DNA of 64,000 nucleotides from Aminobacter anthyllidis (GTDB lineage Bacteria; Pseudomonadota; Alphaproteobacteria; Rhizobiales; Rhizobiaceae), in assembly GCF_018555685.1 (NCBI RefSeq), contig NZ_JAFLWW010000013.1, positions 124,001 through 188,000 of the forward strand, given 5' to 3'. A program made the position numbers and the translations under genes. The notes under the pieces are model-generated. The model saw only the letters and a program-made list of their open reading frames with translations. It was not told the DNA's origin and made no database searches. Positions within the stretch are counted from its first letter, which is position 1, and each line of letters opens with the position of its first letter. Positions 1-24,699 of the stretch are shown in pieces.

Positions 1-875
1 TGACCGGGTCCGGCGGCACGCAGGATCGTAGCCATCTGGTGCCGCGCTCGCCCAAGCAGATCGCCGATTCGGCCATCGAGGCGGCCAAGGCGGGAGCTGC
101 GATCGTCCACTGCCACGTCCGTGACCCCGATACCGGCAAGCCGCGCCGCGACATCCATCTCTACCGCGAGGTGACCGAGCGCATCCGTGAAGCAAACGTC
201 GACGTGGTGCTGAACCTGACCGCCGGCATGGGCGGAGACATGGTGTTCGGCGGCGTCGAGACCCCGCTGCCGCTGAAGGAGGCCGGCACCGACATGGGCG
301 GCGCCACCAACCGCGTCGAGCATGTGCGCCAGTGCCTGCCGGAGATCTGCACGCTCGACTGCGGCACGATGAATTTCGCCGAAGCCGACTACGTCATGAC
401 CAACACGCCGGGCATGCTGCGCGCCATGGGCGGCATGATGACCGCGATGGGCGTCAAGCCCGAGATCGAGGCCTTCGACACCGGCCACCTATGGTTCGCC
501 AAGCAGCTGGTGGAGGAGGGCGTGCTTGCGCCCGACGCGCTGGTGCAGCTGTGCATGGGCGTGCCGTGGGGTGCACCCGACGACCTCAACACCTTCATGG
601 CGATGGTCAACAACGTACCGAAGAGCTGGACCTTCTCGGCCTTTTCGCTCGGCCGCAACCAGATGGCCTATGCGGCGGCCGCTGTGCTGGCCGGCGGCAA
701 TGTGCGCGTCGGCCTCGAGGACAATCTCTGGCTCGACAAGGGCGTGCTCGCCACCAACGCGCAGCTGGTCGAAAAGGCGGTGACAGTCATCGAGACGCTC
801 GGCGCGCGGGTGATCGGGCCGGAAGAGGTGCGCAAGAAGCTCAACCTTGTCAAGCGCGCGCCGCTGGCGGCTTGA
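1..875 (+). CDS. BKACE-family 3-dehydrocarnitine cleavage enzyme (5' truncated)
   Basis: DUF849/BKACE beta-keto acid cleavage enzyme. By context it converts 3-dehydrocarnitine plus acetyl-CoA to a betainyl/acetoacetyl product pair in carnitine catabolism. The reading frame is open from base 3 with no start codon before family-like sequence (TGSGGTQDRSHLVPRSP), so the true start lies upstream of the window and the GTG at 39 is internal. The family zinc-binding HCHVRD motif is present near position 110, and the GLEDNLW segment carrying the third metal ligand Glu lies near the C-terminus. The stop is 38 bases before the L-carnitine dehydrogenase start, as in an operon. Family assignment is firm; substrate is inferred from neighbours. 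Confidence 0.88.
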   Translation, partial: TGSGGTQDRSHLVPRSPKQIADSAIEAAKAGAAIVHCHVRDPDTGKPRRDIHLYREVTERIREANVDVVLNLTAGMGGDMVFGGVETPLPLKEAGTDMGGATNRVEHVRQCLPEICTLDCGTMNFAEADYVMTNTPGMLRAMGGMMTAMGVKPEIEAFDTGHLWFAKQLVEEGVLAPDALVQLCMGVPWGAPDDLNTFMAMVNNVPKSWTFSAFSLGRNQMAYAAAAVLAGGNVRVGLEDNLWLDKGVLATNAQLVEKAVTVIETLGARVIGPEEVRKKLNLVKRAPLAA

Positions 876-912
876 TCGCTGCAAGTTCAAATCTGCCGGG
901 AGGGGTATTTTC

Positions 913-1992
913 GTGAGCACAATTTCCAAAGCAGCCGCCATCGGCGGCGGGGTCATCGGCGCCGGCTGGGTGGCGCGGCTACTGCTCAACGGCATCGACG
1001 TGTCGATCTTCGATCCCGATCCGGAGGCTTCCCGCAAGGTCGGCGAAGTGATGAAGGGCGCGCGCCGCGCCTACAAGCAGATGCTGCCCGGCGGCCTGCC
1101 CAAGGAAGGCACGCTGACCTTCGCCAAGACCATCGCGGAAGCCGTGGCGGACGCCGACTTCATCCAGGAAAGCGTGCCTGAACGGCTCGACCTCAAGCAC
1201 AAGGTGCTGGCCGAGATCGATCTACATGCGCCTGCCAATGCGATCATCGGCTCGTCCACCTCGGGCATCAAGCCGTCTGACATGCAGGTGGCGATGAAGA
1301 AGCACCCTGAAAGACTGGTGGTCGGGCATCCGTTCAACCCAGTCTATCTCCTGCCCATCGTCGAGATCGTTGGCGGCGCCCAGACGTTCCCTGAAGCGAT
1401 CGAAGTCGCCAAGGAGATCTATTCCTCGATCGGCATGAAGCCGGTCGTCATCCGCAAGGAGATCGAAGCCTTCGTCGGCGACCGCCTGCTGGAGGCGGCA
1501 TGGCGCGAGGCGCTGTGGCTGATCAAGGACGGCATCTGCTCGGTCGAGGAACTCGACGACATCATGCGCTACGGCTTTGGCCTGCGCTGGGCCCAGATGG
1601 GCATGTTCCAGGTCTATCGGGTCGCTGGCGGCGAGGCGGGCATGCGCCACTTCATGGCCCAGTTCGGGCCGTGCCTGAAATGGCCGTGGACCAAGCTGAT
1701 GGACGTGCCGGAGTTCAACGACGAGCTTGTCGACCTGATCGCCACCCAGTCGGACGAGCAGTCCGACAAGTGGTCGATCCGCGAGCTGGAAAAGATCCGC
1801 GACGACAATCTCGTCGCGATCATGGATGCGCTGTCGAAGCAGAACAAGGGCAAGGGCTGGGGCGCCGGCGCGCTCTACAAGGACTACACGAAACAACTCG
1901 CCGCCCAAGCCAAGCCCAAGGTCTCCAAGGCCGCCGAAAAGGCCAAGGCAAGCAAGCCGGTGAAGAAGGCTGCGGCCAAGAAGAAGGGCTGA
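913..1992 (+). CDS. lcdH: L-carnitine 3-dehydrogenase with Lys/Ala-rich tail
   Basis: NAD-dependent oxidation of L-carnitine to 3-dehydrocarnitine, feeding the upstream cleavage enzyme. The N-terminus is a 3-hydroxyacyl-CoA-dehydrogenase Rossmann fold (GGGVIGAGWVARLL, residues 9-22). The ESVPE segment and VVGHPFNPVYLLPIVE motif with the catalytic His follow, then the helical C-terminal domain. Start chosen at GTG 913, with a GGGAGGGG ribosome-binding site at about 897-904; the open frame reaches further upstream but overlaps the preceding gene. At 359 aa it lacks the C-terminal hot-dog thioesterase domain found in many rhizobial homologues. Instead it ends in about 30 residues rich in Lys and Ala (KPVKKAAAKKKG at the end). 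The tail's function is unknown. Confidence 0.9.
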   Translation: MSTISKAAAIGGGVIGAGWVARLLLNGIDVSIFDPDPEASRKVGEVMKGARRAYKQMLPGGLPKEGTLTFAKTIAEAVADADFIQESVPERLDLKHKVLAEIDLHAPANAIIGSSTSGIKPSDMQVAMKKHPERLVVGHPFNPVYLLPIVEIVGGAQTFPEAIEVAKEIYSSIGMKPVVIRKEIEAFVGDRLLEAAWREALWLIKDGICSVEELDDIMRYGFGLRWAQMGMFQVYRVAGGEAGMRHFMAQFGPCLKWPWTKLMDVPEFNDELVDLIATQSDEQSDKWSIRELEKIRDDNLVAIMDALSKQNKGKGWGAGALYKDYTKQLAAQAKPKVSKAAEKAKASKPVKKAAAKKKG

Positions 1993-2009
1993 GACGATGC
2001 AGGTGCGTC

Positions 2010-2145
2010 CGAGGCTCGCTCCGCTCGCACCTCAGGATGAGGACCGTGGGTGCCGCGGGACGAGGAACGCCTATCCTGTGATCTCTTGGCCGGAAGCGCC
2101 TCGCTTGGCCTCCCTCATCCTGAGGTGCGAGCGGAGCGAGCCTCG
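2010..2145. repeat. Intergenic palindromic repeat with perfect 33-bp arms
   Basis: Two perfectly complementary 33-bp arms (2010-2042 and 2113-2145) flank a 70-bp centre, between lcdH and the acyl-CoA dehydrogenase. Each arm itself contains a hairpin-like GCTCGCTCCGCTCGC core and a CCTCA/TGAGG block. This resembles the abundant GC-rich palindromic units in rhizobial intergenic regions. It is transcribed within the operon and could act as an RNA hairpin affecting read-through or mRNA stability, which is inference. The acyl-CoA dehydrogenase ribosome-binding site starts only 20 bases after the second arm. Confidence 0.85.
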
Positions 2146-2177
2146 AAGGAGGCACGACAAATTTGGAAGGTGAAGTC

Positions 2178-3341
2178 ATGCATTTCGGTCTGTCCGAGGA
2201 ACAGCAGCTCATCGTCGACACGACGCGCGCCTTTGTCGAAAACGAGCTCTATCCCCATGAGCTGGAGGTCGAGCGCACCGGCCACCTGCGGCGCGAGCTG
2301 ATCGAGGAGATCAAGGCAAAGGCGATCGCCGCCGGACTCTATGCCGCCAACATGCCGGCCGATGTCGGCGGCGCCGGGCTCGATACGCTGACATGGCTGC
2401 TCTACGAAAAGGAGCTCGGCCGCGCCAACTATGCGCTGCACTGGACCTGCGTCGCGCGCCCGTCGAACATCCTGCTCGCAGGCACGCCTGAGCAGCGCGA
2501 GAAGTATCTGTTTCCCTGCATTCGCGGCGAGAAGTCGGACTGTCTCGCCATGACCGAGCCGGGGGCGGGTTCCGACCTGCGCGGCATGAAGGCGTCTGCT
2601 GTCCAGGATGGCAGCGACTGGGTGCTCAACGGGACCAAGCATTTCATCTCACACGCCGACATCGCCGACTTCGCCATCGTCTTCATAGCCTCCGGCGAGG
2701 AGGAATCACCACGCGGCAAGCGCAAGAAGATCACCGCGTTTTTCGTCGACAAGGGCACGCCTGGCTTCACCGTGCGTGACGGCTACCGCAACGTCTCGCA
2801 TCGCGGCTACACCAATTCGGTGCTGGAGTTCGACGACTGCCGCCTGCCGGGAGCCCAAGTGCTCGGCGAGGTGCACAAGGGCTTCGAGGTAGCCAACAGC
2901 TGGCTTGGCGCGACGCGGCTGCAAGTGGGCGCTACCTGCCTCGGCCGCGCCGAACGCGCGCTTGGCCACGCCATCGACTATGCCGCGCAACGCGAGCAAT
3001 TCGGCCAGCAGATCGGCAAGTTCCAGGGCGTGTCGTTCAAGCTCGCCGACATGGCGACCGAGCTCAAGGCAGCCGAACTGATGGTGATGGAGGCCGGCTG
3101 GAAATACGACCAGGGCACGGTGACCGACCAGGACATGGCGATGGCCAAGCTCAAGGCCACCGAGATGCTGGCTTTCGTCGCCGATGAGGCGATCCAGATC
3201 CATGGCGGCATGGGCCTGATGGACGACCTGCCGCTCGAGCGCATCTGGCGCGACGCGCGCGTCGAACGCATCTGGGAAGGCACGTCGGAAATCCAGCGCC
3301 ACATCATTTCGCGCGCGCTGCTCAGGGCGGTGGGCGGATGA
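2178..3341 (+). CDS. Acyl-CoA dehydrogenase (probable gamma-butyrobetainyl-CoA dehydrogenase)
   Basis: FAD-dependent acyl-CoA dehydrogenase of 387 aa, the full family length. It has the N-terminal helical domain, the flavin/substrate signature CLAMTEPGAGSD (about residues 120-131), and the C-terminal domain with IHGGMGLMDDLP and RIWEGTSEIQR, where the Glu before GTSEIQ is the usual catalytic base. ATG 2178 is preceded by GGAAGG at 2165-2170; the in-frame TTG at 2163 overlaps that site and is rejected. Between L-carnitine dehydrogenase and a CaiD-like hydratase, the likely step is desaturation of gamma-butyrobetainyl-CoA to crotonobetainyl-CoA. That substrate is inferred; the family is certain. 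Confidence 0.88.
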   Translation: MHFGLSEEQQLIVDTTRAFVENELYPHELEVERTGHLRRELIEEIKAKAIAAGLYAANMPADVGGAGLDTLTWLLYEKELGRANYALHWTCVARPSNILLAGTPEQREKYLFPCIRGEKSDCLAMTEPGAGSDLRGMKASAVQDGSDWVLNGTKHFISHADIADFAIVFIASGEEESPRGKRKKITAFFVDKGTPGFTVRDGYRNVSHRGYTNSVLEFDDCRLPGAQVLGEVHKGFEVANSWLGATRLQVGATCLGRAERALGHAIDYAAQREQFGQQIGKFQGVSFKLADMATELKAAELMVMEAGWKYDQGTVTDQDMAMAKLKATEMLAFVADEAIQIHGGMGLMDDLPLERIWRDARVERIWEGTSEIQRHIISRALLRAVGG

Positions 3342-3361
3342 TGCGGCTGCTTCTTGGTTCG

Positions 3362-3478
3362 ACCCTCCCCCTTGTGGGGAGGGTGGCCCGCAGGGCCGGG
3401 TGGGGGTGAAAAATGTCTGGCTCGACTTCTGACACCCCCACCCCGACGCTGCGCGTCGACCCCCAAAAGGGGGAGGGT
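3362..3478. repeat. Coding palindromic element, copy A (supplies a start codon)
   Basis: A 117-bp element of two inverted modules. The left module is 3362-3407 and the right module 3432-3478. Outer arms begin and end with ACCCTCCCCCTT / GGGGGAGGGT. Each module holds a small hairpin with a 3-nt loop: 3385-3397 (stem GGCCC, loop GCA) and 3444-3458 (stem CGACGC, loop TGC). The ATG of the acyl-CoA synthetase (3413) and its G-rich ribosome-binding stretch (3401-3408) are inside the element. An in-frame TGA at 3407-3409 rules out any more upstream start, so the first 22 or so residues are repeat-encoded. Confidence 0.85.
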
Positions 3479-5665
3479 AAAGGCCGCCTCGAACGCCTGC
3501 TGCGGCCGAAGTCGATCGCCGTGTTCGGCGGCTCTCAGGCAGCGGCCGTGGTCAGGCAGTGCCTGAAGATGGGCTTCGCCGGCGACATCTGGCCGGTGCA
3601 TCCGACAAAAGCCGAGGTCGAAGGCATAAGGACCTTCCGCTCGGTGGCGGAGTTGCCGGAAGCACCCGATGCGGCCTTTGTCGGCGTCAACCGCTTCCTG
3701 ACCATCGAGGTGATCGCAGCGCTTGCCGAACGCGGGGCGGGTGGGGCGATCTGCTTTGCCTCGGGTTTCCTCGAGGCCGGCAATGACGATGCCGATGGCG
3801 AGCGGCTGCAAGGCGAGTTGGTGGCGGCGGCCGGCGCGATGCCGGTCATCGGACCCAATTGCTATGGCCTGATCAACTATGCCGACGGCGCGCTTTTGTG
3901 GCCCGACCAGCATGGCGGCCAAAGGCTTGCGCCCGACGGGCGCGGGGTCGCCATCATCACGCAATCGTCGAACATCGCCTGCAACCTCACCATGCAGAAG
4001 CGCGGCCTGCCGGTGGCGTTCCTGATGACCGCTGGCAATCAGGCGCAGACCGGCCTGTCCGAGATGGCGCTGGGCCTGATCGAGGACGACCGCGTGTCCT
4101 GCCTCGGTCTGCATATCGAAGGCTTCGACAAGGTCGACGGCTTCGAGCGACTGGCGGCGCGGGCACGCGAGCTGGGCAAGCCGATCGTCGCCATGAAGGT
4201 CGGCCGCTCAGAACAGGCACGCAAGGCGACGATCTCGCACACGGCATCGCTGGCGGGGTCGGACGCAGCGTCAGACGCTTTCCTCAAGCGCCTGGGTATT
4301 GCTCGTGTCGACACCATTCCCGCGCTGCTCGAGACGCTGAAGCTGCTGCATGCCGTGGGTCCGCTGCCGGGTTTCACGCTGTCGTCGATGAGTTGCTCGG
4401 GCGGCGAGGCGTCCGTCATGGCCGACAGCGCCGAGGGCCGGCGGCTACGTTTCCCCGCGCTTACGCCTGACCACTATGCGCGGATAAAATCGACGCTCGG
4501 TGCCTTCGTTTCGGTCGCCAATCCGCTCGACTACCACACCTTCATCTGGAACGACGAACCGGCGATGACGGCCACTTTCACCGCCATGGCATCGGGCGGT
4601 TTCGACCTCAACCTGCTGGTGCTCGACTTCCCGCGCAATGACCGCTGCTCGGATGCCGACTGGTGGCCGACCGTGCGTGCCTTCGAGGCGGCGCTGAAGG
4701 CCAATGGCGCGCGAGGTGCCGTGGTGGCGTCGATGTCGGAGAACCTGACCGAGGAACACGCTGCCGATCTCTTTTGGCGCGGCATCGTGCCGCTGCAAGG
4801 GATTGCGGAAGCGATGGACGCGGCGGAGGCCGCGGCGACAATTGGAGAGGCGTGGCGGCGCGATCCCTCCTCCTTGAGGGGAGGGTCGATCGGCGAAGCC
4901 GATCGGGGTGGGGTCGTGCACGGTGCGTCGGCGGTGCCTTCCGATGCTACCCCCTCCGCCCGCTTCGCGGGCACCTGCCCCTCAAGGGGGGAGGATACCC
5001 AGCTCGACGAGGCCGCCGCCAAATCCCTGTTGCGCGGGGCCGGCCTTGCCGTACCCGCGGGCCGTCGCGCGGCGAGCGTGGCGGAGGCCATCGCGGGGGC
5101 GGAGGCGTTGGGCCATCCCGTCGCGCTCAAGGCGCTCGGCGTCGCCCACAAGAGCGAACTCGGTGCCGTCAGGCTCAACCTGCAGGCCGGCGAGGAGGTT
5201 GGCGCAGCCGCGGCGGCCCTCTTTTCGCTCGGCTCCGGCCTCTATGTCGAAAAGATGGTCTCGGGCGCTTTGGCCGAACTCATCGTCGGTGTCACCAGCG
5301 ATCCGCTGTTTGGCCCGGTCATGACCATCGGCACCGGCGGCGTGCTGGTCGAACTGCTGAAGGACAGCGCCACGCTGCTGCTGCCTACCTCGCGCGGCGA
5401 GGTCGAGGCGGCACTCAAGGGGCTGAAGATGTATCCGTTGCTCGACGGCTATCGCGGCCGCGCCAGGGCGGACGTTCCAGCCGCCATCGACGCGATCATG
5501 GGGATCGCGGCATTCGTGTCCGGGCATGCCGATGCTGTCGAGGAGCTCGACGTCAACCCGCTGATCGTCTGTGGTGAAGGGCAGGGCGCCTGGATTGCTG
5601 ATGCACTGCTGGTGTTATCCTCCCCCCTTGAGCGGGAGGTGGCCGCGCAGCGGCCGGAGGGGTAG
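3413..5665 (+). CDS. ADP-forming acyl-CoA synthetase (acetate-CoA ligase family) with repeat-encoded inserts
   Basis: Two-part ADP-forming acyl-CoA synthetase of 750 aa. The CoA-binding and ligase-CoA domains come first (RPKSIAVFGGS near residue 31, PVIGPNCYGLINY near 145, ISHTASLAGSDAA with the phospho-His region near 280). The ATP-grasp domain follows (ALKALGVAHKSELGAVRLNL near 570, MTIGTGGVLVELLKD near 640, EELDVNPLIV near 705). By context it activates gamma-butyrobetaine, crotonobetaine or carnitine to the CoA thioester. The N-terminal ~22 residues, a ~44-residue linker (about 485-528) between the two halves, and the last ~15 residues with the stop codon are all encoded by copies of one palindromic repeat. 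Without them the protein is about 670 aa. Family is firm; substrate is inferred. Confidence 0.88.
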   Translation: MSGSTSDTPTPTLRVDPQKGEGKGRLERLLRPKSIAVFGGSQAAAVVRQCLKMGFAGDIWPVHPTKAEVEGIRTFRSVAELPEAPDAAFVGVNRFLTIEVIAALAERGAGGAICFASGFLEAGNDDADGERLQGELVAAAGAMPVIGPNCYGLINYADGALLWPDQHGGQRLAPDGRGVAIITQSSNIACNLTMQKRGLPVAFLMTAGNQAQTGLSEMALGLIEDDRVSCLGLHIEGFDKVDGFERLAARARELGKPIVAMKVGRSEQARKATISHTASLAGSDAASDAFLKRLGIARVDTIPALLETLKLLHAVGPLPGFTLSSMSCSGGEASVMADSAEGRRLRFPALTPDHYARIKSTLGAFVSVANPLDYHTFIWNDEPAMTATFTAMASGGFDLNLLVLDFPRNDRCSDADWWPTVRAFEAALKANGARGAVVASMSENLTEEHAADLFWRGIVPLQGIAEAMDAAEAAATIGEAWRRDPSSLRGGSIGEADRGGVVHGASAVPSDATPSARFAGTCPSRGEDTQLDEAAAKSLLRGAGLAVPAGRRAASVAEAIAGAEALGHPVALKALGVAHKSELGAVRLNLQAGEEVGAAAAALFSLGSGLYVEKMVSGALAELIVGVTSDPLFGPVMTIGTGGVLVELLKDSATLLLPTSRGEVEAALKGLKMYPLLDGYRGRARADVPAAIDAIMGIAAFVSGHADAVEELDVNPLIVCGEGQGAWIADALLVLSSPLEREVAAQRPEG
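4864..4995. repeat. Coding palindromic element, copy B (in-frame linker)
   Basis: A 132-bp element inside the acyl-CoA synthetase gene, read through without a stop. Outer arms are CCTTGAGGGGAGGG (left) and CCCCTCAAGGGGG (right). Small hairpins lie at 4887-4905 (8-bp stem CGATCGGC, loop GAA) and 4958-4972 (6-bp stem GCCCGC, loop TTC). The centre (around 4936-4950), read on the minus strand, shares an AGCATCGGAAGG-like block with the centres of copies C and D, so B is inserted in the opposite orientation. It falls between the CoA-ligase and ATP-grasp domains, where an extra linker is tolerable. Confidence 0.85.
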
Positions 5666-5758
5666 CCTCGGAAGAACCCGCCGCGGCGTCGCACACTGCC
5701 GCAACGACCCCACCCGCCCGGACTTCGTCCGGACACCCTCCCCTCAAGGGGGAGGGGA
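5617..5758. repeat. Coding palindromic element, copy C (supplies C-terminus and stop codon)
   Basis: A 142-bp element with arms CCTCCCCCCTTGAG and CTCAAGGGGGAGGG. Small hairpins are at 5641-5655 (stem GGCCGC, loop GCA) and 5718-5732 (stem CCGGAC, loop TTC). The acyl-CoA synthetase frame enters the left module and stops at TAG 5663-5665, so the last residues (SSPLEREVAAQRPEG) come from the repeat. The right module ends about 23 bases before the ATG of the CaiD-like gene, so the element also fills the intergenic space. Confidence 0.85.
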
Positions 5759-5780
5759 CCGCCAACGCAGGAGAGTAAAA

Positions 5781-6563
5781 ATGTCCGACGTCGTGAAAAC
5801 CCGCAGGGAGGGCGTGATCCTCGAAGTCACGCTCGATCGGCCCAAGGCCAATGCCATCGACCTTGCGACATCAAGGCTGTTGGGCGAGACCTTCAAGGCT
5901 TTTCGCGACGATGATGGGCTTCGTATCGCCATCGTGAAGACGGCTGGCGAAAAATTCTTCTCGGCCGGTTGGGACCTCAAGGCTGCGGCCAGTGGCGACG
6001 CGGTCGATGGCGATTATGGCGTCGGCGGTTTCGGCGGGCTGCAGGAACTGCGCGACCTCAACAAGCCAGTCATCGCCTGCGTCAATGGCATGGCGGTGGG
6101 TGGCGGCTTCGAGCTGGCGCTGTCCTGCGACCTGATCTACGCCTCGGAGCATTCGAGCTTCGCGCTGCCCGAGATCAAGGCCGGCACGCTGGCGGACGCT
6201 GCGACCATCAAGCTGCCCAAGCGTATCCCCTATCACGTGGCGATGGACCTGTTGCTCACCGGGCGCTGGATGGACGTGGCCGAGGCGCATCGCTGGGGCC
6301 TGGTCAACGAGGTGCTGCCAGCCGACAAGCTCGAAGACCGTGTCTGGGAGATCGCCCGCCTGCTCGCCGGCGGCCCGCCGCTGGTCTTCGCCGCCATCAA
6401 GGAGGTGGCGCGCGCAGCCGAGGTGATGGGTTTCCAGGAAACGATGAACCGCATCACCAAGCGGCAATTCCCAACGGTAGACGAACTCTACGCCTCGGAG
6501 GACAATCTGGAAGGCTTCAAGGCGTTCGCCGAGAAGCGCGATCCGGTATGGAAGGGGAAGTAG
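5781..6563 (+). CDS. caiD: Carnitinyl-CoA dehydratase / crotonobetainyl-CoA hydratase
   Basis: Crotonase-family enzyme of 260 aa, matching E. coli CaiD closely in length and along its sequence: LDRPKANAID, GEKFFSAGWDLKAAA, GGGFELAL and the C-terminal EKRDPVWKGK. The two glutamates that serve as crotonase acid/base residues are present in GGGFELAL and ALPEIKAGT. The loop after the second is ADAAT rather than the common PGAGG-like sequence. ATG 5781 has AGGAGAG at 5769-5775; the open frame extends upstream only through repeat copy C. It hydrates crotonobetainyl-CoA to L-carnitinyl-CoA in the operon's beta-oxidation-like route. Confidence 0.92.
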   Translation: MSDVVKTRREGVILEVTLDRPKANAIDLATSRLLGETFKAFRDDDGLRIAIVKTAGEKFFSAGWDLKAAASGDAVDGDYGVGGFGGLQELRDLNKPVIACVNGMAVGGGFELALSCDLIYASEHSSFALPEIKAGTLADAATIKLPKRIPYHVAMDLLLTGRWMDVAEAHRWGLVNEVLPADKLEDRVWEIARLLAGGPPLVFAAIKEVARAAEVMGFQETMNRITKRQFPTVDELYASEDNLEGFKAFAEKRDPVWKGK

Positions 6564-6573
6564 GCCCGCGCCA

Positions 6574-7515
6574 ATGACCGACTACGCAAAGCTCATCGAC
6601 GCCGAGACCTGGGCTTTCATCGAGCGGACGAACTCCTACTATCCGCCCGATACCATCGACTACACGATCACCCAGCAGCGCGAGATCTACGACCGCATGT
6701 GCCGGGAGTTCTTCGCCGGCTATCCCGAGGGTGTGTCGGCCGAGACGATTGTCGTCGTGGCGCCCGGACACGACGTGCCCGCCCGCATCTACCGCCTCGC
6801 TGGCAAGGCGCCGGAGGCGGTGGTGCTCTATTTCCACGGTGGCGGCTTCATCCTCGGCGGGCTCGACAGCCATGACGACGTCTGCGCCGAGCTGTGCGGC
6901 CGAACCGGCTACGAGGTCGTGTCAGTCGACTACAGGCTGGCGCCCGAGCACAAACATCCGGCGGCCTTCGACGATGCCATGGCCGCCTTCGAATGGGCGG
7001 TGGCGAGATACAGTCAGCCCATAGTCCTCGCCGGCGACAGCGCCGGAGGCAACATCGCGGCCGCCGTCAGCCACGCGACGCGCGGGCACGTCAGGCGTCC
7101 GGTCGGGCAATTGCTGGTCTATCCCGGCCTCGGCGGTGATCGCAGCCGCGGCTCCTATGTCAGCCACGCCGAGGCGCCGATGCTGACCATGCGCGATCTC
7201 GAATTCTACAAGGACATCCTTACCGGCGGCGAGGACCGCACGGGGGACATCACGCTGTCGCCACTTGCCGACGCCGACTTTGCCAACCTGCCGCCAAGTG
7301 TCGTCATCACAGCCGAATGCGACCCGCTTTCGTCCGATGGCGAGGCCTATGGCGAGCGTATCGTTGCGTCAGGCGGCAAAGCCTTCTGGTTCGAGGAGCC
7401 AGGTCTTGTGCACGGCTATCTGCGTGCGCGCCACACCGTCACCCGCGCCCGCCAAAGCTTCACCCGCATCGTCGATGCCGTGGCTGTGCTGGGGCGGGGC
7501 GAGTGGGTGTGGTGA
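6574..7515 (+). CDS. HSL-family alpha/beta hydrolase
   Basis: Hormone-sensitive-lipase family carboxylesterase of 313 aa. The oxyanion-hole motif HGGGFILGG (about residue 90) and nucleophile elbow GDSAGGN (about residue 152) are intact; the acid probably sits in ECDPLSSDG and the His in VHGYLRA. No signal peptide is visible, so it is probably cytosolic. It starts 10 bases after caiD and ends the operon. The pathway needs hydrolysis of L-carnitinyl-CoA and the dehydrogenase here lacks a thioesterase domain, so this hydrolase might act on a pathway ester or thioester. That is speculation; a generic esterase is equally possible. Confidence 0.82.
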   Translation: MTDYAKLIDAETWAFIERTNSYYPPDTIDYTITQQREIYDRMCREFFAGYPEGVSAETIVVVAPGHDVPARIYRLAGKAPEAVVLYFHGGGFILGGLDSHDDVCAELCGRTGYEVVSVDYRLAPEHKHPAAFDDAMAAFEWAVARYSQPIVLAGDSAGGNIAAAVSHATRGHVRRPVGQLLVYPGLGGDRSRGSYVSHAEAPMLTMRDLEFYKDILTGGEDRTGDITLSPLADADFANLPPSVVITAECDPLSSDGEAYGERIVASGGKAFWFEEPGLVHGYLRARHTVTRARQSFTRIVDAVAVLGRGEWVW

Positions 7516-7516
7516 G

Positions 7517-7819
7517 CTACTTTTCGAGGCGTGCCCCTATGTCCATGCGCTGGTGAAGAATACGGACCACGTCGATCGCTTCACCAACGATGCGATAGAC
7601 GATGAAATGTGAGCCGACGCCCAGCTTATGATAGCCTGCCCTGATATCCGCGAGCGAACGCCCTTTGCGCCGGCTCTTGGCGATGTCCAAGCACGCGTCG
7701 TGAATCTGCAGGATATACCGGTCGGCCTGATCTTGATTCCACGTGTCGGCGGTGTAGCGCCAAATCTGCTGGAGATCCGCTTCGGCTGCCGGAGTAAAGA
7801 TCAGCCGCTTAGCGGCCAT
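7517..7819 (-). CDS. parE: ParE/RelE-superfamily toxin
   Basis: Toxin of 100 aa with the ParE-like pattern: N-terminal FTPAAEADLQQIWRYTAD helix, the middle RRKGRSLADIRAGYHKL, then the SHFIVYRI strand and the VVRILHQRMD C-terminus. ParE toxins typically inhibit DNA gyrase, but RelE-fold members can instead cleave mRNA and sequence cannot decide. It starts one base after the ParD-like antitoxin stop, the usual antitoxin-first order. Its stop nearly abuts the convergent hydrolase gene. Confidence 0.85.
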   Translation of the reverse strand: MAAKRLIFTPAAEADLQQIWRYTADTWNQDQADRYILQIHDACLDIAKSRRKGRSLADIRAGYHKLGVGSHFIVYRIVGEAIDVVRILHQRMDIGARLEK

Positions 7820-7820
7820 A

Positions 7821-8054
7821 TCAGGCGCGCATCCGGCCGAGGAAGTCCTCGATGTCGAGCGGCTTGGACAATCCGCTTTCCTCGCCTTCGATGATCGCCG
7901 CGCGCAATTGTGCCACCTGCAGTTCGTGCTCTTCGAGCAGCCTCAAGCCGGCGCGTATGACCTCGCTGGCCGAGTTGTAGCGGCCGTCCTCGACCTGTCG
8001 GTCGACGAACTCGGAGAAATGCTGGCCGAGCGAGATGGAGGTGTTCTTGTTCAT
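7821..8054 (-). CDS. parD: ParD-like ribbon-helix-helix antitoxin
   Basis: Antitoxin of 77 aa with a CopG/ParD ribbon-helix-helix N-terminus (SISLGQHFSEFVDRQVEDGRYNSASEVIRAGLRLLEE) that would bind DNA as a dimer. The acidic C-terminal tail would wrap the toxin. Its start codon is three bases from a perfect inverted repeat (8057-8087), a probable operator for autoregulation. It is immediately upstream of the toxin on the same strand. Confidence 0.87.
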   Translation of the reverse strand: MNKNTSISLGQHFSEFVDRQVEDGRYNSASEVIRAGLRLLEEHELQVAQLRAAIIEGEESGLSKPLDIEDFLGRMRA

Positions 8055-8056
8055 GC

Positions 8057-8087
8057 GGCAAGAATACCAAAGATTGGTATTCTTGCC
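8057..8087. promoter_or_regulatory. Probable parDE operator (13-bp perfect inverted repeat)
   Basis: Arms 8057-8069 and 8075-8087 are exact reverse complements around a 5-base centre (AAGAT); the core is AAGAATACCA. It lies directly upstream of the antitoxin start, where ParD-type dimers usually repress their own promoter. Operator function is inferred from position and symmetry. Confidence 0.65.
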
Positions 8088-8094
8088 AAATCAC

Positions 8095-9753
8095 TCAATT
8101 CCCCGCGCTCGCCATCCGGCGTCCACTGATCGCCTTTTCCAGCCAGCCGATCTCCATCTCCGGCACTGACGACAGCAGCAGGTCGGTGTAGGCGTCGAAG
8201 GGCGGCTTCAGCACTTCGGATTTCGGCCCGTAGCGCACGACTTCGCCGCGGTACATGACGGCGATGGAGTCGGCGATCGACTTCACCGTTGCCAGGTCGT
8301 GGGTGATGAACAAATAGGCGACGCCTTCCTCGGCCTGTAGCCCGAGCAGCAGCTTGAGGATGCCGTTGGCGACCAGCGGGTCGAGCGCGCTCGTCACCTC
8401 GTCGCAGATGATCAGTCTCGGTTTGGCGGCAAGCGCACGGGCAATGCAGACGCGTTGTTTCTGACCGCCGGAAAGCTCCGCCGGGTAGCGATCGATGAAA
8501 CCGCGCCCCATCTCGATCTTGTCCAGCAGTTCGGCGACCCTGGTATCGCGCTCCTTGCCACCCATGCCGAAATAGAACTCCAGCGGACGGCCGATGATGG
8601 TGCCCACGGTCTGGCGTGGGTTCATTGCCACATCGGCCATCTGGTAGATCATCTGCAGTTCGCGCAGGTCGTCGCGGCTGCGCTCGGCAAGGCGGTTGCC
8701 GAGCGTACGACCGGCAAAGGTGATGCTGCCTTGCTCGGGCGGCAACAGGCCGGTAATGGCGCGGGCCAGCGTCGACTTGCCCGAACCGGACTCGCCGACG
8801 ACGGCCAGCGTCTGGCCGGGCAGGATGTCGACAGAGACGTTTTTCAGCACCTTGATCTTGCCGCCGGCATAGGCCGCGGTCACGTTCCTGACCGAGAGGA
8901 ACGGGCTTGCGTCGGGCTTTTTTTCCTCGTGCGCGATCTCATGCACGGAGACCAGCGCTGAAGTGTACTCCTGGCGCGGCTCCTTGATGATCTGGCGCGT
9001 ACCGCCCCATTCGACCAGCTTGCCGTGCCTCAGCACCATGATCTCGTCGGAGACCTGGGCGACAACGGCAAGGTCGTGGCTGATGTAGAGTGCTGCCACG
9101 CCAGTGTCGCGGATCGCTTCCTTGATGGCGGCGAGCACGTCGATCTGGGTGGTCACGTCGAGCGCCGTCGTTGGCTCGTCGAAGACGATCAGGTCGGGCT
9201 CGGAGCACAGCGCCATTGCCGTCATGACGCGCTGCAGTTGCCCGCCCGAGACTTGGTGCGGGAAGCGCTTGCCGATGTTCTCAGGGTCAGGAAGGCTGAG
9301 TTTCCTGAACAGCGCCACGGCCCGCTTTTCCGCCTCGGCGCGGCTCGCCACGCCATGCAGGATCGAGGCTTCGACGACCTGGTCCATCAGTCGGTGCGCC
9401 GGGTTGAAGGCCGCTGCCGCCGACTGCGCGACGTAACAGACCTCGCGGCCGCGCAGGGCGCGGATGCCTTGGGTGCCACCCTTGCGGATATCGCGGCCGT
9501 TGAGGATGATCTCGCCGCCAGTGATCTTCACGCCGCCGCGGCCATAGGCCATCGACGACAGGCCGATGGTCGACTTGCCGGCACCGGATTCGCCGATCAG
9601 GCCGAGCACCTTGCCCTTGTTCAGCGTCAGCGAAACGTCGTGCACCAGCGTGATGGTGCGTGGTGCCTCGCCCGGCGGATAGACCTTGGCCTCGATCCTG
9701 AGGTTGCGGATGTCGAGCAGCAGGTCGGAGCCGTTGGCGGGTGCCTTAGCCAT
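8095..9753 (-). CDS. Fused peptide-type ABC transporter ATPase (DppD-DppF fusion)
   Basis: Two complete ABC ATPase domains in one 552-aa chain. The first has Walker A GESGAGKST (about residue 54) and signature VSGGQLQRV; the second has Walker A GESGSGKST (about residue 320) and signature LSGGQKQRV. Each has a downstream Walker B (DEPTTALD, DEVTSALD). Domain similarity and gene order place it in the oligopeptide/dipeptide/nickel importer family. It overlaps the upstream permease by 8 bases and ends the operon. The substrate cannot be read from sequence. Confidence 0.93.
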   Translation of the reverse strand: MAKAPANGSDLLLDIRNLRIEAKVYPPGEAPRTITLVHDVSLTLNKGKVLGLIGESGAGKSTIGLSSMAYGRGGVKITGGEIILNGRDIRKGGTQGIRALRGREVCYVAQSAAAAFNPAHRLMDQVVEASILHGVASRAEAEKRAVALFRKLSLPDPENIGKRFPHQVSGGQLQRVMTAMALCSEPDLIVFDEPTTALDVTTQIDVLAAIKEAIRDTGVAALYISHDLAVVAQVSDEIMVLRHGKLVEWGGTRQIIKEPRQEYTSALVSVHEIAHEEKKPDASPFLSVRNVTAAYAGGKIKVLKNVSVDILPGQTLAVVGESGSGKSTLARAITGLLPPEQGSITFAGRTLGNRLAERSRDDLRELQMIYQMADVAMNPRQTVGTIIGRPLEFYFGMGGKERDTRVAELLDKIEMGRGFIDRYPAELSGGQKQRVCIARALAAKPRLIICDEVTSALDPLVANGILKLLLGLQAEEGVAYLFITHDLATVKSIADSIAVMYRGEVVRYGPKSEVLKPPFDAYTDLLLSSVPEMEIGWLEKAISGRRMASAGN

Positions 9754-10576
9754 TGCCGCGCCCTCCCTTGAGATCGGTGGTGCGGTTGAGCACCCAGTCG
9801 GCGACGAGGTTGACGGAGATGGCGAGTGCGGCGATCGCCGCCGCCGGGATCAGGGCTGCCGGAATGCCGAAGACGATGCCGTCCTTGTTTTCCTTGACCA
9901 TGCCGCCCCAGTCGGCATCCGGCGGTTGTACGCCGAGGCCGAGGAACGAGAGCGCGGACAGGAACAGCACGGCATAGATGAAGCGCAGGCCGAGTTCGGA
10001 AATCAGCGGCGACAAGGCGTTGGGCAGGATCTCGCGGAAGATGATCCAGCCATTGCCTTCGCCGCGCAGCTTGGCCGCTTCGACGAAGTCCATGACGTTG
10101 ATGTCGACGGCGACCGCCCGCGACAGGCGGTAGACGCGGGTGGCGTCGAGGATGCCCATCACAAGGATCAGCGTGAGCAGTGTCGACGGCAGCACCGACA
10201 GCACTACCAGCGCGAAGATCAGCGTCGGGATCGCCATCAAGAGGTCGACGAAACGCGACATGCCCGTGTCGAGCCAGCCGCCGACGACTGCGGCGGTAAA
10301 GCCGAGGATCGCGCCGAGCGAGAACGACAATGCCGTTGCCATCACCGCGATGAAGATGGTTGTGCGCGCGCCGTAGATCATGCGCGAGAGCAGGTCGCGG
10401 CCGAGATTGTCGGTGCCGAGCAGGAATTGCGACGACATCGGTGCCCAGACGTCGCCGACGATCTCGCCGAGGCCGTAGGGCGCGATCAGCGGCGCGAAGA
10501 TAGCCGTGATCAAAAACAGCGCCGTCAGGATCAGGCCGATCGCAGCACCAAGGGGGATATGTTTCAGATCGAGCAT
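9746..10576 (-). CDS. ABC transporter permease (DppC-like)
   Basis: Inner-membrane permease of 276 aa with about six membrane segments. The BPD-transp-1 EAA-type loop is at EAAKLRGEGNGWIIFREILPN, which contacts the ATPase. ATG 10576 is chosen because GAGAGG precedes it at proper spacing; the longer frame to 10630 would overlap the upstream permease gene. The N-terminal OppC-like segment (LGAAIGLILTALFLITAIFAPLIAPYG) supports the start. It works as a heterodimer with the 10587-11546 product. Confidence 0.9.
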   Translation of the reverse strand: MLDLKHIPLGAAIGLILTALFLITAIFAPLIAPYGLGEIVGDVWAPMSSQFLLGTDNLGRDLLSRMIYGARTTIFIAVMATALSFSLGAILGFTAAVVGGWLDTGMSRFVDLLMAIPTLIFALVVLSVLPSTLLTLILVMGILDATRVYRLSRAVAVDINVMDFVEAAKLRGEGNGWIIFREILPNALSPLISELGLRFIYAVLFLSALSFLGLGVQPPDADWGGMVKENKDGIVFGIPAALIPAAAIAALAISVNLVADWVLNRTTDLKGGRGNG

Positions 10577-10586
10577 GGTGCGCCTC

Positions 10587-11546
10587 TCATTTCGGATGCC
10601 GGAGGCGTGGATTGGCGACGATGGCGGCAATGTCGGCGATGATGTTGAGGCCGATATAGACGGCAGCGAAGATCAGTCCCACCGCCTGCACCACCGGCAC
10701 GTCGCGCTTGGCGACATGGTCGACGAGATATTGCCCCATGCCCGGATAGACGAAGATCACCTCGATGACGACGACGCCGACGATGAGGAAGGCGAGGTTG
10801 AGCATGACGACGTTGATCACAGGCGCGATCGCATTGGGGAAGGCGTGCTTGCGGATGATCTCGAAAGGCGAAAGGCCCTTGAGTTCGGCGGTCTCGATAT
10901 AGGCCGACTGCATGACGTTGAGGATCGCCGCACGCGTCATGCGCATCATGTGGGCCAGCACCACAAGTGTCAGGGCCGTTGCCGGCAGGGCGATGGCCTT
11001 CATGCGTTCGAGGAACGGCATGCCGTCATAGACGGTGGAGATGCCCGGGAAGATCTGCCATTTCACCGCGAAGAAGTAGACGAGCAGGTAGCCGACGAAG
11101 AACTCCGGCAACGAGGTCGAGGCCAGCGCCAGGCCAGAGATGGTCTTGTCGATCCAGCCGTTGCGGTAGCGCACGGCGAGCAGGCCGAGGATGATGGCCA
11201 GCGGTATCGACACGATCGCCGCCCAGAAGGCGAGGAACAGCGTGTTCCACAGCCGACCGCCAATGGCGGTGGCGATATCCTGCCGGCTCGACAAGGCGGT
11301 GCCGAGGTCGCCGGTCAAGACGCCGCCGAGCCAGCGGAAATACCTGACATAGGCAGGCGCGTTGAGGCCGAGTTCCTCGCGCAGGTTGGCGAGTGCCTGC
11401 GGCGTGGCCGACTGGCCGAGAATGGATTGGGCGACGTCGCCGGGCAGGATCTGGGTGCCGGCGAAGATCAGGACCGAAACGGCCAGGAGCAGGAGTAGGC
11501 CCAGCGCGACGCGCTGGGCTATCAGTTTCAGGATCGGGGAAGACAT
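10587..11546 (-). CDS. ABC transporter permease (DppB-like)
   Basis: Permease of 319 aa with an N-terminal membrane segment typical of DppB (RVALGLLLLLAVSVLIFAGTQILPGDVAQ). A periplasmic loop follows, then five further membrane segments. The EAA loop is ETAELKGLSPFEIIRKHAFPN, and the C-terminus VIFVYPGMGQYLVDHV is family-typical. It lies 10 bases upstream of the DppC-like start and 13 bases downstream of the binding-protein stop. Confidence 0.92.
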   Translation of the reverse strand: MSSPILKLIAQRVALGLLLLLAVSVLIFAGTQILPGDVAQSILGQSATPQALANLREELGLNAPAYVRYFRWLGGVLTGDLGTALSSRQDIATAIGGRLWNTLFLAFWAAIVSIPLAIILGLLAVRYRNGWIDKTISGLALASTSLPEFFVGYLLVYFFAVKWQIFPGISTVYDGMPFLERMKAIALPATALTLVVLAHMMRMTRAAILNVMQSAYIETAELKGLSPFEIIRKHAFPNAIAPVINVVMLNLAFLIVGVVVIEVIFVYPGMGQYLVDHVAKRDVPVVQAVGLIFAAVYIGLNIIADIAAIVANPRLRHPK

Positions 11547-11559
11547 GCGGGCCGGGCCG

Positions 11560-21391: not shown

Positions 21392-23752
21392 ATGACCCAG
21401 CACACTCCGAACCTCAAGGCCCAAAAGATTTCGGGCGGCGTCCACACCGACCAGCGCCACGATTCCGCGCACAAGCATGTCGCCGGCGAGGCCGTCTATA
21501 TCGACGACATGCCCGAGCCTGCCGGCACGCTGCATGTCGGGCTCGGCCTGTCGAATGTCGCGCATGGCACGCTGAAGTCAGTCGACCTGTCGGCGGTCCG
21601 CGCAGCACCCGGCGTCGTCGACGTTTTGACCCATGCCGATGTTCCCGGCGATAACGACATCTCGCCGAGCGGCATGCATGACGACCCTGTCCTCGCCCAA
21701 GGCAAGGTGCAGTTCCACGGCCAGCCGATCTTCGCGGTCGTTGCCGAAACGCGCGAGCAGGCGCGCCGGGCCGCGCGCCTGGCAAAGGTCGAGTATGACG
21801 AGCTGCCGGCGGTCATCAGCATCTGGGATCTCGACACCGAAAAAGACAAGCAGGTGACGACCCCGCTGACGCTCAATCGCGGCGATGCGGCGGCGGCGAT
21901 TGCCGCGGCCCCGCGCCGGATCAAGGGGCGGATGAAGCTCGGCGGCCAGGACCATTTCTACCTCGAAGGCCAGGTGTCGCTGGCCGTGCCCGGCGAAGAC
22001 GACGAGGTAACAGTCTATTGCTCGACGCAAGGGCCAAGCGAGACCCAGCATCTCGTCTCCCATGTTCTCGGCGTGCCGAGCCACGCGGTGACGGTCGAGG
22101 TGCGCCGCATGGGCGGCGGCTTCGGTGGCAAGGAAACCCAGGCCAACCAGTGCGCGGCGCTTGCCGCCATCGCCGCCAAGAAGCACAAGCGCGCCGTCAA
22201 GGTCAGGCTCGACCGCGACGAGGACATGACCGCCACCGGCAAGCGCCATGACTTCGCCATCGACTACGAGGTCGGCTTCGACGACGAGGGCAACATCCTC
22301 GGCGTCGACTACATGTTCGCGCTCAATGCCGGCTTTTCGGCCGACCTGTCGGGACCGGTCGGCGACCGGGCGCTGTTTCACTGCGACAACGCCTATTTCT
22401 ATCCCAACGTGCATGCCAAGTCGGCACCGCTCTACACCAACACCGTCTCCAACACGGCGTTCCGTGGCTTTGGCGGGCCGCAAGGCATGGTCGGTGCCGA
22501 GCGCGTCATCGACGAGGTCGCCTTCGCCGTCGGCAAGGACTCGCTCGAAATCCGCAAGCTGAATTTCTACGACCAGATCGGCACGCCGGGCGAGCGTAAC
22601 CTCACGCCCTATCACCAGAAGGTCGAGGACTGCATCATCCAGCGCATCGTCGCCGAACTCGAGGAAAGCGCCCAATATGCGCGGCGCCGGCGCGAGATCG
22701 CGGCCTTCAATGCCAATAGCCGTTTCATCAAGCGCGGTCTGGCGCTGACGCCGGTCAAGTTCGGCATCTCGTTCACCAAGACCGAGTCCAACCAGGCCGG
22801 CGCGCTGGTGCATGTCTATGCCGATGGCTCGGTGCACATGAACCATGGCGGCACCGAGATGGGCCAGGGCCTGCACCTCAAGGTGGCGCAGGTGGTGGCG
22901 GAAGAGTTCCAGATCGACCTGGAAAGGGTGAAGATCACCGCGACGACCACGGCCAAGGTGCCCAACACCGCGCCGACGGCGGCGTCGTCGGGTGCCGACC
23001 TCAACGGCATGGCAGCGCAGGATGCGGCGCGGCAGATCCGCAAGCGGCTGACCGATTTCGCCGCCGACAAATACCAGGTGCCGGTCGACCAGGTGGTGTT
23101 CCTGCCCAACCGCGTGCGCGTCGGCAACCAGGAGATTTCCTTCAACGACCTGGTCAAGCAGGCCTATCTCAACCGCATCCAGCTGTCGGCCGCCGGCCAC
23201 TACAAGACGCCGAAGATCCATTGGGATCGCGCCAAGGGCAGGGGCCATGCCTTCTATTACTACGCCTATGGCGCGGCCTGCGCGGAGGTCTCGGTCGATG
23301 TTTTGACCGGCGAATATGTCGTCGAGCGCGCCGACATCCTGCACGACACCGGCCGCTCGCTGAACCGGGCTATCGACATCGGCCAGGTCGAGGGCGGCTT
23401 CATCCAAGGCATGGGCTGGCTGACCACCGAAGAGCTGTGGTGGGACGGCAAGGGCCGACTGCGCACGCATGCGCCGTCGACCTACAAGATCCCGCTGGCG
23501 TCCGACCGGCCCAAGATCTTCAACGTCGCGCTGACCGACTGGTCCGAGGCCTACGAGCCGACGATCCACCGCTCGAAGGCCGTCGGCGAGCCGCCGCTGC
23601 CGCATGGCATGGCGGTGCTGCATGCGCTGTCGGATGCGGTGGCAAGTGTTGCCGAGCACAAGATCTGCCCGCGTCTCGACGCCCCGGCCACGCCGGAGCG
23701 GGTGCTGATGGCGATCGAACGCCTCAGGGCCGAGGCGGCCCAGGCACAGTGA
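21392..23752 (+). CDS. xdhB: Xanthine dehydrogenase molybdenum-binding subunit
   Basis: Molybdopterin subunit of 786 aa that oxidises hypoxanthine and xanthine to urate. Cofactor contacts include MGGGFGGKETQ (about residue 245), AFRGFGGPQGM (about residue 352) and GGTEMGQGLHLK (about residue 485). The catalytic Glu is in KAVGEPPLPHG near residue 735. It is full length and in frame throughout. Its TGA overlaps the GTG start of xdhC by 4 bases. Confidence 0.96.
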   Translation: MTQHTPNLKAQKISGGVHTDQRHDSAHKHVAGEAVYIDDMPEPAGTLHVGLGLSNVAHGTLKSVDLSAVRAAPGVVDVLTHADVPGDNDISPSGMHDDPVLAQGKVQFHGQPIFAVVAETREQARRAARLAKVEYDELPAVISIWDLDTEKDKQVTTPLTLNRGDAAAAIAAAPRRIKGRMKLGGQDHFYLEGQVSLAVPGEDDEVTVYCSTQGPSETQHLVSHVLGVPSHAVTVEVRRMGGGFGGKETQANQCAALAAIAAKKHKRAVKVRLDRDEDMTATGKRHDFAIDYEVGFDDEGNILGVDYMFALNAGFSADLSGPVGDRALFHCDNAYFYPNVHAKSAPLYTNTVSNTAFRGFGGPQGMVGAERVIDEVAFAVGKDSLEIRKLNFYDQIGTPGERNLTPYHQKVEDCIIQRIVAELEESAQYARRRREIAAFNANSRFIKRGLALTPVKFGISFTKTESNQAGALVHVYADGSVHMNHGGTEMGQGLHLKVAQVVAEEFQIDLERVKITATTTAKVPNTAPTAASSGADLNGMAAQDAARQIRKRLTDFAADKYQVPVDQVVFLPNRVRVGNQEISFNDLVKQAYLNRIQLSAAGHYKTPKIHWDRAKGRGHAFYYYAYGAACAEVSVDVLTGEYVVERADILHDTGRSLNRAIDIGQVEGGFIQGMGWLTTEELWWDGKGRLRTHAPSTYKIPLASDRPKIFNVALTDWSEAYEPTIHRSKAVGEPPLPHGMAVLHALSDAVASVAEHKICPRLDAPATPERVLMAIERLRAEAAQAQ

Positions 23753-24699
23753 GCACGACGGCCAAAAGCCTCAGGGCCTTCCTCGCTGCAGCACCTTCGG
23801 TGGCGCTGGTCGAGGTGGCCGAGGCCAAGGGCTCGACGCCGCGCGAAAAGGGCGCGTGGATGCTGGTGTCGCCGCAGCGCATCTTCGGCACCATCGGCGG
23901 CGGTCAGCTTGAGTTCATGGCGATCGACACGGCGCGAGCGATGCTGAAGGAGACAATCTCCCCCGTTGAGGGGGAGATGCCCGCGAAGCGGGCAGAGGGG
24001 GTAACCTCAGGAAGAAGCGCCCAAGGGGCGTTGAGTCCGGCCGATGGGACCCCACCCGGCGGCTTCGCCGCCACGGTCCCCTCAAGGGGGAGGGAAAGTC
24101 TCACCCTCGACATTCCCCTTGGGCCGGAGATCGGCCAGTGCTGTGGCGGACGGGTCGAGGTCGCCGTCAGCAAAGTCGATCAGGCGTTGCGCACCGATCT
24201 GCTGGCCAGTGCCGAGGCGTCGGACGCCGCCCTGCCGCATGTCCATGTCTTTGGCGGCGGCCATGTCGGCCATGCGCTGGCATCGGCCTTCGCGCTTTTG
24301 CCGCTCAATGTCGTCGTCGTCGAGACCCGCACTGACGCGCTCGAAGGCATGCCCGACAACGTCGTCACGCGGCTGACGCCGATGCCGGAGGAGATGGTGC
24401 GCGAGGCGCCGGCGGGTACGGCCTTCGTGGTGCTGACGCATGACCACGCGCTCGATTTCCTGATCGTCGCCGAGGCGCTCAAGCGCGAGGACGCGGCCTA
24501 TGTCGGCATGATCGGCTCAAAGACCAAGAAGGCGACGTTCAGAAGCTGGTTCCTCAAGTCGGCTGGCGGCAGCGAGGAACAGTTCGCGCGGCTCGTCTGC
24601 CCGATCGGCGGCGACGCGGTCAAGGACAAGCGCCCCGCCGTCATCGCCGCGCTCGCCGCGGCCGAGATCATGACCGCGCTGGCTCCCCGGGGGAAGTAA
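23749..24699 (+). CDS. xdhC: Xanthine dehydrogenase accessory protein XdhC with repeat-encoded insert
   Basis: XdhC binds and sulfurates molybdopterin cofactor for insertion into XdhB. The GTG start overlaps the xdhB stop (GTGA), the only in-frame start near that junction. Features are EVAEAKGSTPREKGAWMLV, GTIGGGQLE, the IGQCCGGRVEV Cys pair and the Rossmann segment HVFGGGHVGHALA. The chain is 316 aa, about 47 longer than usual. The excess (about residues 70-116) is encoded by a palindromic repeat inserted in frame between the N-terminal domain and the IGQCCGG motif. Whether the insert is tolerated or spliced out in the protein is unknown. Confidence 0.93.
   Translation: MSTTAKSLRAFLAAAPSVALVEVAEAKGSTPREKGAWMLVSPQRIFGTIGGGQLEFMAIDTARAMLKETISPVEGEMPAKRAEGVTSGRSAQGALSPADGTPPGGFAATVPSRGRESLTLDIPLGPEIGQCCGGRVEVAVSKVDQALRTDLLASAEASDAALPHVHVFGGGHVGHALASAFALLPLNVVVVETRTDALEGMPDNVVTRLTPMPEEMVREAPAGTAFVVLTHDHALDFLIVAEALKREDAAYVGMIGSKTKKATFRSWFLKSAGGSEEQFARLVCPIGGDAVKDKRPAVIAALAAAEIMTALAPRGK
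23956..24095. repeat. Coding palindromic element, copy D (in-frame insert in xdhC)
   Basis: A 140-bp element with outer arms CTCCCCCGTTGAGGGGGAG (left) and CCCCTCAAGGGGGAGGG (right). Small hairpins lie at 23979-23993 (stem GCCCGC, loop GAA) and 24058-24072 (stem GGCGGC, loop TTC). The centre CCTCAGGAAGAA is shared with copy C. The xdhC frame passes through without a stop, encoding a Pro/Gly/Ala/Arg-rich stretch unlike the rest of the protein. Confidence 0.85.

Follow-up and report, generated by a model that had tools for sequence, protein, structure and literature searches.

Background

The best-known palindromic elements inserted in frame within genes are those of Rickettsia and Wolbachia. 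Two reports describe RPEs as in-frame elements in conserved protein genes and report one RPE-bearing enzyme to be active (PMC2229807, PMC10969869). The genes uvrA and uvrB can each hold two intragenic GTAG/CGTC REPs; such REPs occupy nearly the same position of recB in two species of Xanthomonas and can donate TAG stops to the genes that they enter (PMC3733652), and a further report describes Bradyrhizobium REPs in 3'-UTRs (PMC5082802).

Here we describe a palindromic element of Aminobacter that was followed up from a window of 64,000 nucleotides of the Aminobacter anthyllidis genome, in which one acyl-CoA synthetase gene holds three copies. RPEs, the Wolbachia repeats and the Aminobacter element are all hairpin formers of 100-150 bp found in frame in conserved genes as well as between genes, and the likeness to the Rickettsia elements drawn in an earlier note on this DNA is apt. 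The Aminobacter element differs from RPEs, to which it is likened by description and not by sequence, in its clade, its GC-richness, the several element types found per seam and a constraint measured on nucleotides. Like REPs it forms inserts inside genes and donates stop codons (PMC3733652), whereas REP units measure 20-40 nt and the Aminobacter element at least 100 nt with four stems, in a genus without a Y1 transposase. RIME and other intergenic repeats of Sinorhizobium meliloti are likewise rhizobial, palindromic, repeated and of unknown function but are described as intergenic (PMC2573895), the comparison here being with that description. The coding palindromes of nematomorph mitochondria also place hairpin-forming sequence in functional coding sequence; there both arms encode conserved protein, whereas the Aminobacter insert encodes an unconserved linker (PMC6649704). 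Among the top-ranked papers of searches in the open literature, no title or abstract opening described the Aminobacter element family. The inserts resemble RPEs and intragenic REPs and are of a known kind, but they represent a new family in a new clade with new features.

Results

Three copies of one palindromic family in an acyl-CoA synthetase gene

The earlier note had proposed that three copies of one palindromic family (A, B and C) lie in a single gene, with A carrying the ATG behind an in-frame TGA, B forming the interdomain linker and C supplying the last codons and the TAG, and all of this was borne out (Table 1). A domain search placed the three domains of the product on one chain, identifying the fused form of the synthetase. 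B aligns with C, which is inverted, over 142 positions at 78% identity (BLAST E 1.6e-22). A has diverged further: it matches C at 80% over 49 nt (E 3.3e-5), is 73% identical to its own reverse complement and was found only weakly by single-sequence nhmmer from C (E 0.036) and from B (E 0.94). An independent HMM built from 29 other copies of the same genome, with A, B and C excluded, recovered all three, each at E<=1e-3, and on folding A, B and C each beat all 200 dinucleotide shuffles (z -6.6, -4.7 and -3.6). Rfam covariance models gave three sub-threshold matches in positions 1-12000 of the window, none of them at A, B or C.

Table 1. Positions in the window of the synthetase gene, the xdhC-like gene and their copies of the element
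Feature	Position	Strand	Basis
Fused NDP-forming acyl-CoA synthetase, 750 aa, host of copies A, B and C	3413..5665	+	CoA_binding_2, Succ_CoA_lig and ATP-grasp_5 domains; solved relatives
Copy A: SD-like sequence, ATG and codons 1-22	3362..3478 (117 nt)	+	
SD-like G-rich strand of inner stem (3402-3409), in-frame TGA (3407-3409) and ATG (3413-3415)	3402..3415	+	coordinates checked
Copy B: residues 484-528, linker joining the CoA-ligase part to the ATP-grasp domain	4864..4995	+	
Copy C, inverted relative to B: residues 735-750 and TAG (5663-5665), continuing into intergenic space	5617..5758 (142 nt)	-	
xdhC-like gene with an in-frame copy between its domains	23752..24699	+	XdhC_CoxI and XdhC_C domains
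Fourth copy of the window, in frame inside xdhC	23955..24095	-	

Comparison with orthologues shows that the host linker is largely missing at the site of B, so that B has replaced the linker rather than simply lengthened it. A copy of C in L003 (L numbers denote our loci), 89% identical, is read through into a longer tail. Within positions 1-7515 the synthetase gene shares its strand with genes for a 3-hydroxyacyl-CoA dehydrogenase, an acyl-CoA dehydrogenase, an enoyl-CoA hydratase and an alpha/beta hydrolase; these same-strand genes are a catabolic cluster, which we assume may serve carnitine-like compounds.

Architecture and spread of the element

An alignment of 20 copies shows an outer stem, two small hairpins, an inner stem and a centre that varies in length. 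The outer stem forms terminal inverted repeats of 15 pairs, with 96% of cells paired, and base pairs covary between copies, double changes being seen at 18 of 31 pairs with a score of 0.319 against 0.122 in shuffles (reached by 0 of 500). The element is palindromic, foldable and roughly 100-150 bp long, full matches to the covariance model spanning 97-159 nt. A genome-wide covariance search, one of the checks suggested in the earlier note, returned 60 strand-wise rows in the 6.7 Mb host genome, hand-merged into at least 32 places, which is a lower bound because the scoring covered just 150 of 5285 first-look candidates; at least seven of these places lie inside genes of known family.

Counting the strain's own genome and its relatives, the element was matched in 24 of 41 genomes, including all ten of the genus. 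The 14 genomes behind the chosen loci include 13 with matches, of which S. meliloti 4H41 has only 2 strand-wise rows, while that of L050 gave no match to the model. The copy in the synthetase linker of L036 (4386-4495) is the top scorer in a genome with only 9 strand-wise rows.

No mobilising enzyme was identified in a search that covered a single family, the Y1 transposase PF01797, which was found in none of the ten genomes of the genus; the control search was positive in 5 of the 14 named genomes. This result, together with the length of the full matches compared with a 20-40 nt unit, led us to reject a REP mobilised by a RAYT. By eye no target-site duplication is visible at the empty and filled Lhr site, where a few host codons differ around the insert.

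In-frame copies in other genes

In-frame copies were also found inside Lhr, HrpB, HyuA, XdhC and, twice, FtsY, between or before domains recognised by Pfam, and these six and B are the places inside genes of known family counted above; A and C are at gene ends. The two FtsY copies lie in the N-terminal region of the gene (L131:966-2807, minus strand, same genome), ahead of the SRP54 domains. Pfam was run on 40 spanning ORFs, with shorter or secondary ORFs elsewhere excluded and no ORF scanned for the elements in L133, L136, L140 and L147; L135 (CTP_transf_like) was uncounted because the element precedes the domain and the start is unsure, as were the ORFs of L121 and L122, whose partial domain matches lie away from the element.

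Occupancy of these seams in the genus, scored by eye, varies between genomes. The Lhr site is filled in 4 of 9 and empty (short) in 5 of 9. Of ten genomes, four have the element family at the XdhC seam, two have a second repeat family there and the remaining four an unrelated host segment; at the HrpB seam three of ten have the element family, two the second repeat family and five a short segment. Repeats of three kinds fill HyuA in 8 of 9 genomes, the ninth being empty, and in FtsY one position is occupied by a copy in 3 of 9 genomes and another position in 5 of 9. In XdhC, as in the synthetase linker, the element stands where host sequence would be. In other species it is the second palindromic family, with a peptide like HPYPLPVKDGERGAS, that is found at the same seams in HrpB (L160, L161) and XdhC (L173, L175). 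The filled share of five seams tracks the genome-wide row count (Spearman 0.82, p 0.004, 10 genomes), a descriptive correlation only, as the states were hand-coded and the genomes are related.

The earlier note had called three copies in one gene striking, and when 32 copies are placed at random at least three fall within 2.4 kb in just 0.18% of 200000 simulations; given the in-frame copies in five other genes, however, the synthetase gene marks the far end of a genome-wide pattern and is no peculiarity in itself.

The element in synthetase orthologues

Of 90 loci, nine were dropped before alignment as duplicates or frameshifted, leaving 81 protein rows; seam counts refer to 80 genes, our own included (L069 dropped), and the protein tree to 79 (L069 and L077 dropped). 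With the independent 29-copy HMM at E<=1e-3 the element was detected at the N seam in 11 genes, in the linker in 15, at the C seam in 6 and in the conserved core in none. At E<=1 the corresponding counts were 15, 17, 6 and 0, and an earlier HMM that included copies from the scanned loci gave 13, 18, 6 and 0.

B is present at identical junctions in five of the ten Aminobacter genes, our own included, and its frame is open in all five. L006 has a different element in its linker and L007-L010 a short linker, in all of these with host domains intact, and each of the nine other genus orthologues is a single open frame of at least 725 codons that runs through the linker. The linker of P. salicylatoxidans carries an element and two sister M. 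soli strains are without one at that site; outside these, inverted or quite different elements occupy the synthetase linker in other species. Alignment of orthologues, by which the earlier note might have been refuted, did not tell against it: linkers without an element are shorter and different (35-44 codons vs 62 in most of the examples listed, and 18 in L073), and orthologues without an element mostly have, by eye, an ATG no more than a few codons away from the CoA-binding domain.

In the DNA tree of the host gene L007, L008 and L010, which have no B, group with our strain (96/99), which means that B can be lost; the tree gives no support to one clean inheritance of B. Linker elements of class II (L006, L020, L022, L024, L036, L044) share, by eye, the start nucleotide TGG+11, which suggests one old class II insertion. 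This was rejected, since the protein tree requires a minimum of 15 linker-state changes, or of 11 in presence and absence, with states coded by hand and a tree of poor resolution within the genus.

In L002, L004, L005, L006 and L009 the last domain is followed by other repeat-like tails (GPSSPAGPSPRxGRGEG), so that different repeats have supplied the C-terminus of the synthetase in several species. In addition, a short extra repeat seems by eye to be nested in the element both in L006 (near 1530-1570) and in the Lhr insert of L181, and is alike in the two genes and two species.

The start region

By eye, nine of the ten Aminobacter genes have the ATG between the two strands of the inner stem, or its remnant, directly after the G-rich SD-like strand; the exception is L003, whose ATG comes after another, upstream element. 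In the predicted RNA of copy A the SD-like bases are paired with a mean probability of 0.87 and the ATG with 0.38, and because of this predicted pairing copy A may dampen translation.

Constraint on protein and on nucleic acid

The AlphaFold2 model (48 sequences, mean pLDDT 84) falls under 50 at residues 1-22, 274-280, 489-527 and 742-750, and three of these four segments are element-encoded. The proposal in the earlier note that repeats may be remodelling this protein stands in that the protein is lengthened; the additions, however, are at low-confidence seams and B has a dN/dS of 1.4, compared with 0.09 for the rest of the gene. This value reflects a dN of 0.103 and a dS of 0.074 in the insert against 0.048 and 0.539 elsewhere, and the windows flanking B have dS of 0.468 and 0.636, so that the dip is limited to the insert. 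Codon positions 1, 2 and 3 are variable at 6, 10 and 8 of 45 codons in B and at 90, 51 and 380 of 653 in the rest of the gene. Insert B is without sign of protein-level constraint.

In eight further comparisons from five genes, with about 40-50 codons per insert behind each dS value, mean insert dS was below host dS throughout. Insert and host values were 0.03 and 0.47 for HrpB, 0.11 and 0.49 for XdhC, 0.10 and 0.51 for HyuA2, 0.12 and 0.38 for FtsY1, 0.21 and 0.57 for the Lhr pair, 0.23 and 0.44 for FtsY2 and 0.31 and 0.54 for HyuA1. In the Lhr trio the insert (0.416) is barely under the host (0.491) and two of three pairs are reversed (0.46 vs 0.39; 0.61 vs 0.52); the dip is seen in most, not all, of the other inserts.

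Within B, the arms and hairpins vary at 9 of 93 sites and the centre at 14 of 39. When eight insert sets are taken together, 68 of 776 paired columns are variable vs 84 of 283 unpaired columns, a contrast biased towards lower paired variation since these very sequences served to predict the structures. Among orthologous inserts 2 pairs were compensated, 33 one-sided and kept and 27 broken (a single HyuA set accounting for 16 of these), and compensatory evolution inside orthologous inserts was discarded, two cases being too few. Selection on the sense RNA was likewise rejected in view of the lack of strand bias (28 C/U vs 23 A/G variable paired columns). Judged by these substitution patterns, the inserts seem to be under constraint as nucleic acid and, as protein, to be no more than tolerated.

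Discussion

We consider it probable that a MITE-like palindromic element has settled in tolerant seams of proteins, where it is translated and kept by constraint on the nucleic acid and not by protein function. A, B and C are copies of this MITE-like DNA element, which probably arrived by transposition. Most copies of the element lie outside recognised genes, and inside genes it would persist only where it leaves the frame open and the protein tolerates extra residues, at the N-terminus, in an interdomain linker or at the C-terminus. At such seams the ribosome would simply translate it, all three segments of the synthetase presumably being made as protein, and on the structural model the low-confidence segments are probably disordered. 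Copy A would have been turned into a translation start region, with SD-like sequence and ATG within the element, and copy C into a stop. Structure or a binding site in the nucleic acid, and not a function of the protein, would then keep the inserts intact.

A low dS could also arise in the absence of constraint if the inserts were younger than the species that carry them, through repeated insertion at one preferred nucleotide or through gene conversion among genomic copies. The host-gene tree agrees with this in that it does not unite the carriers of B, L001 grouping with three B-less strains, as do arm-only partial copies (49-54 nt) elsewhere in the genus that are up to 94% identical to B and the occupation of the same seam by different elements in different species. 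We nevertheless find young inserts unlikely: full-length orthologues of B are 90-93% identical, whereas full-length paralogues among the matches listed reach 69-79%, all five copies of B have both junctions and an alignable centre in common, and dS is normal beside B, which means that no larger tract was recombined.

Recruitment for protein function, such as a flexible linker that alters the enzyme, would fit the position of B exactly between domains and its open frame in all five carrier orthologues, but is very improbable given a dN/dS of about 1.4, codon positions that vary alike and host domains that stay intact with another element (L006) or a short linker (L007-L010). A and C do lie at the borders of the gene, as one would expect of intergenic repeats, and it might be supposed that the gene model is wrong, with a start or stop elsewhere or a protein split at B. 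This is scarcely credible, as the frame is open through the linker in the nine other genus orthologues and no other in-frame ATG, GTG or TTG lies between the TGA at 3407 and the CoA-binding domain.

Beyond the nucleic-acid constraint that we favour, a more speculative reading, possible though doubtful, is that tolerant protein seams are landing sites at which a genome retains structured elements under selection for a nucleic-acid function, all that is asked of the protein being tolerance of the translated residues, with one palindromic family replacing another at a given seam. Binding of a nucleoid protein, or a hairpin formed by the mRNA where two domains meet, may tentatively be named as examples of such a function.

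Conclusions

For Rickettsia and Wolbachia genome decay and relaxed selection are, in our reading, easy explanations of in-frame palindromic elements. The Aminobacter genome measures 6.7 Mb, its inserts reach core genes, ftsY among them, and close relatives have both empty and filled sites. The dS dip provides a simple test of whether a coding insert is kept as protein or as nucleic acid, and gene starts, linkers and tails that derive from repeats in this clade are not to be taken for protein innovations.
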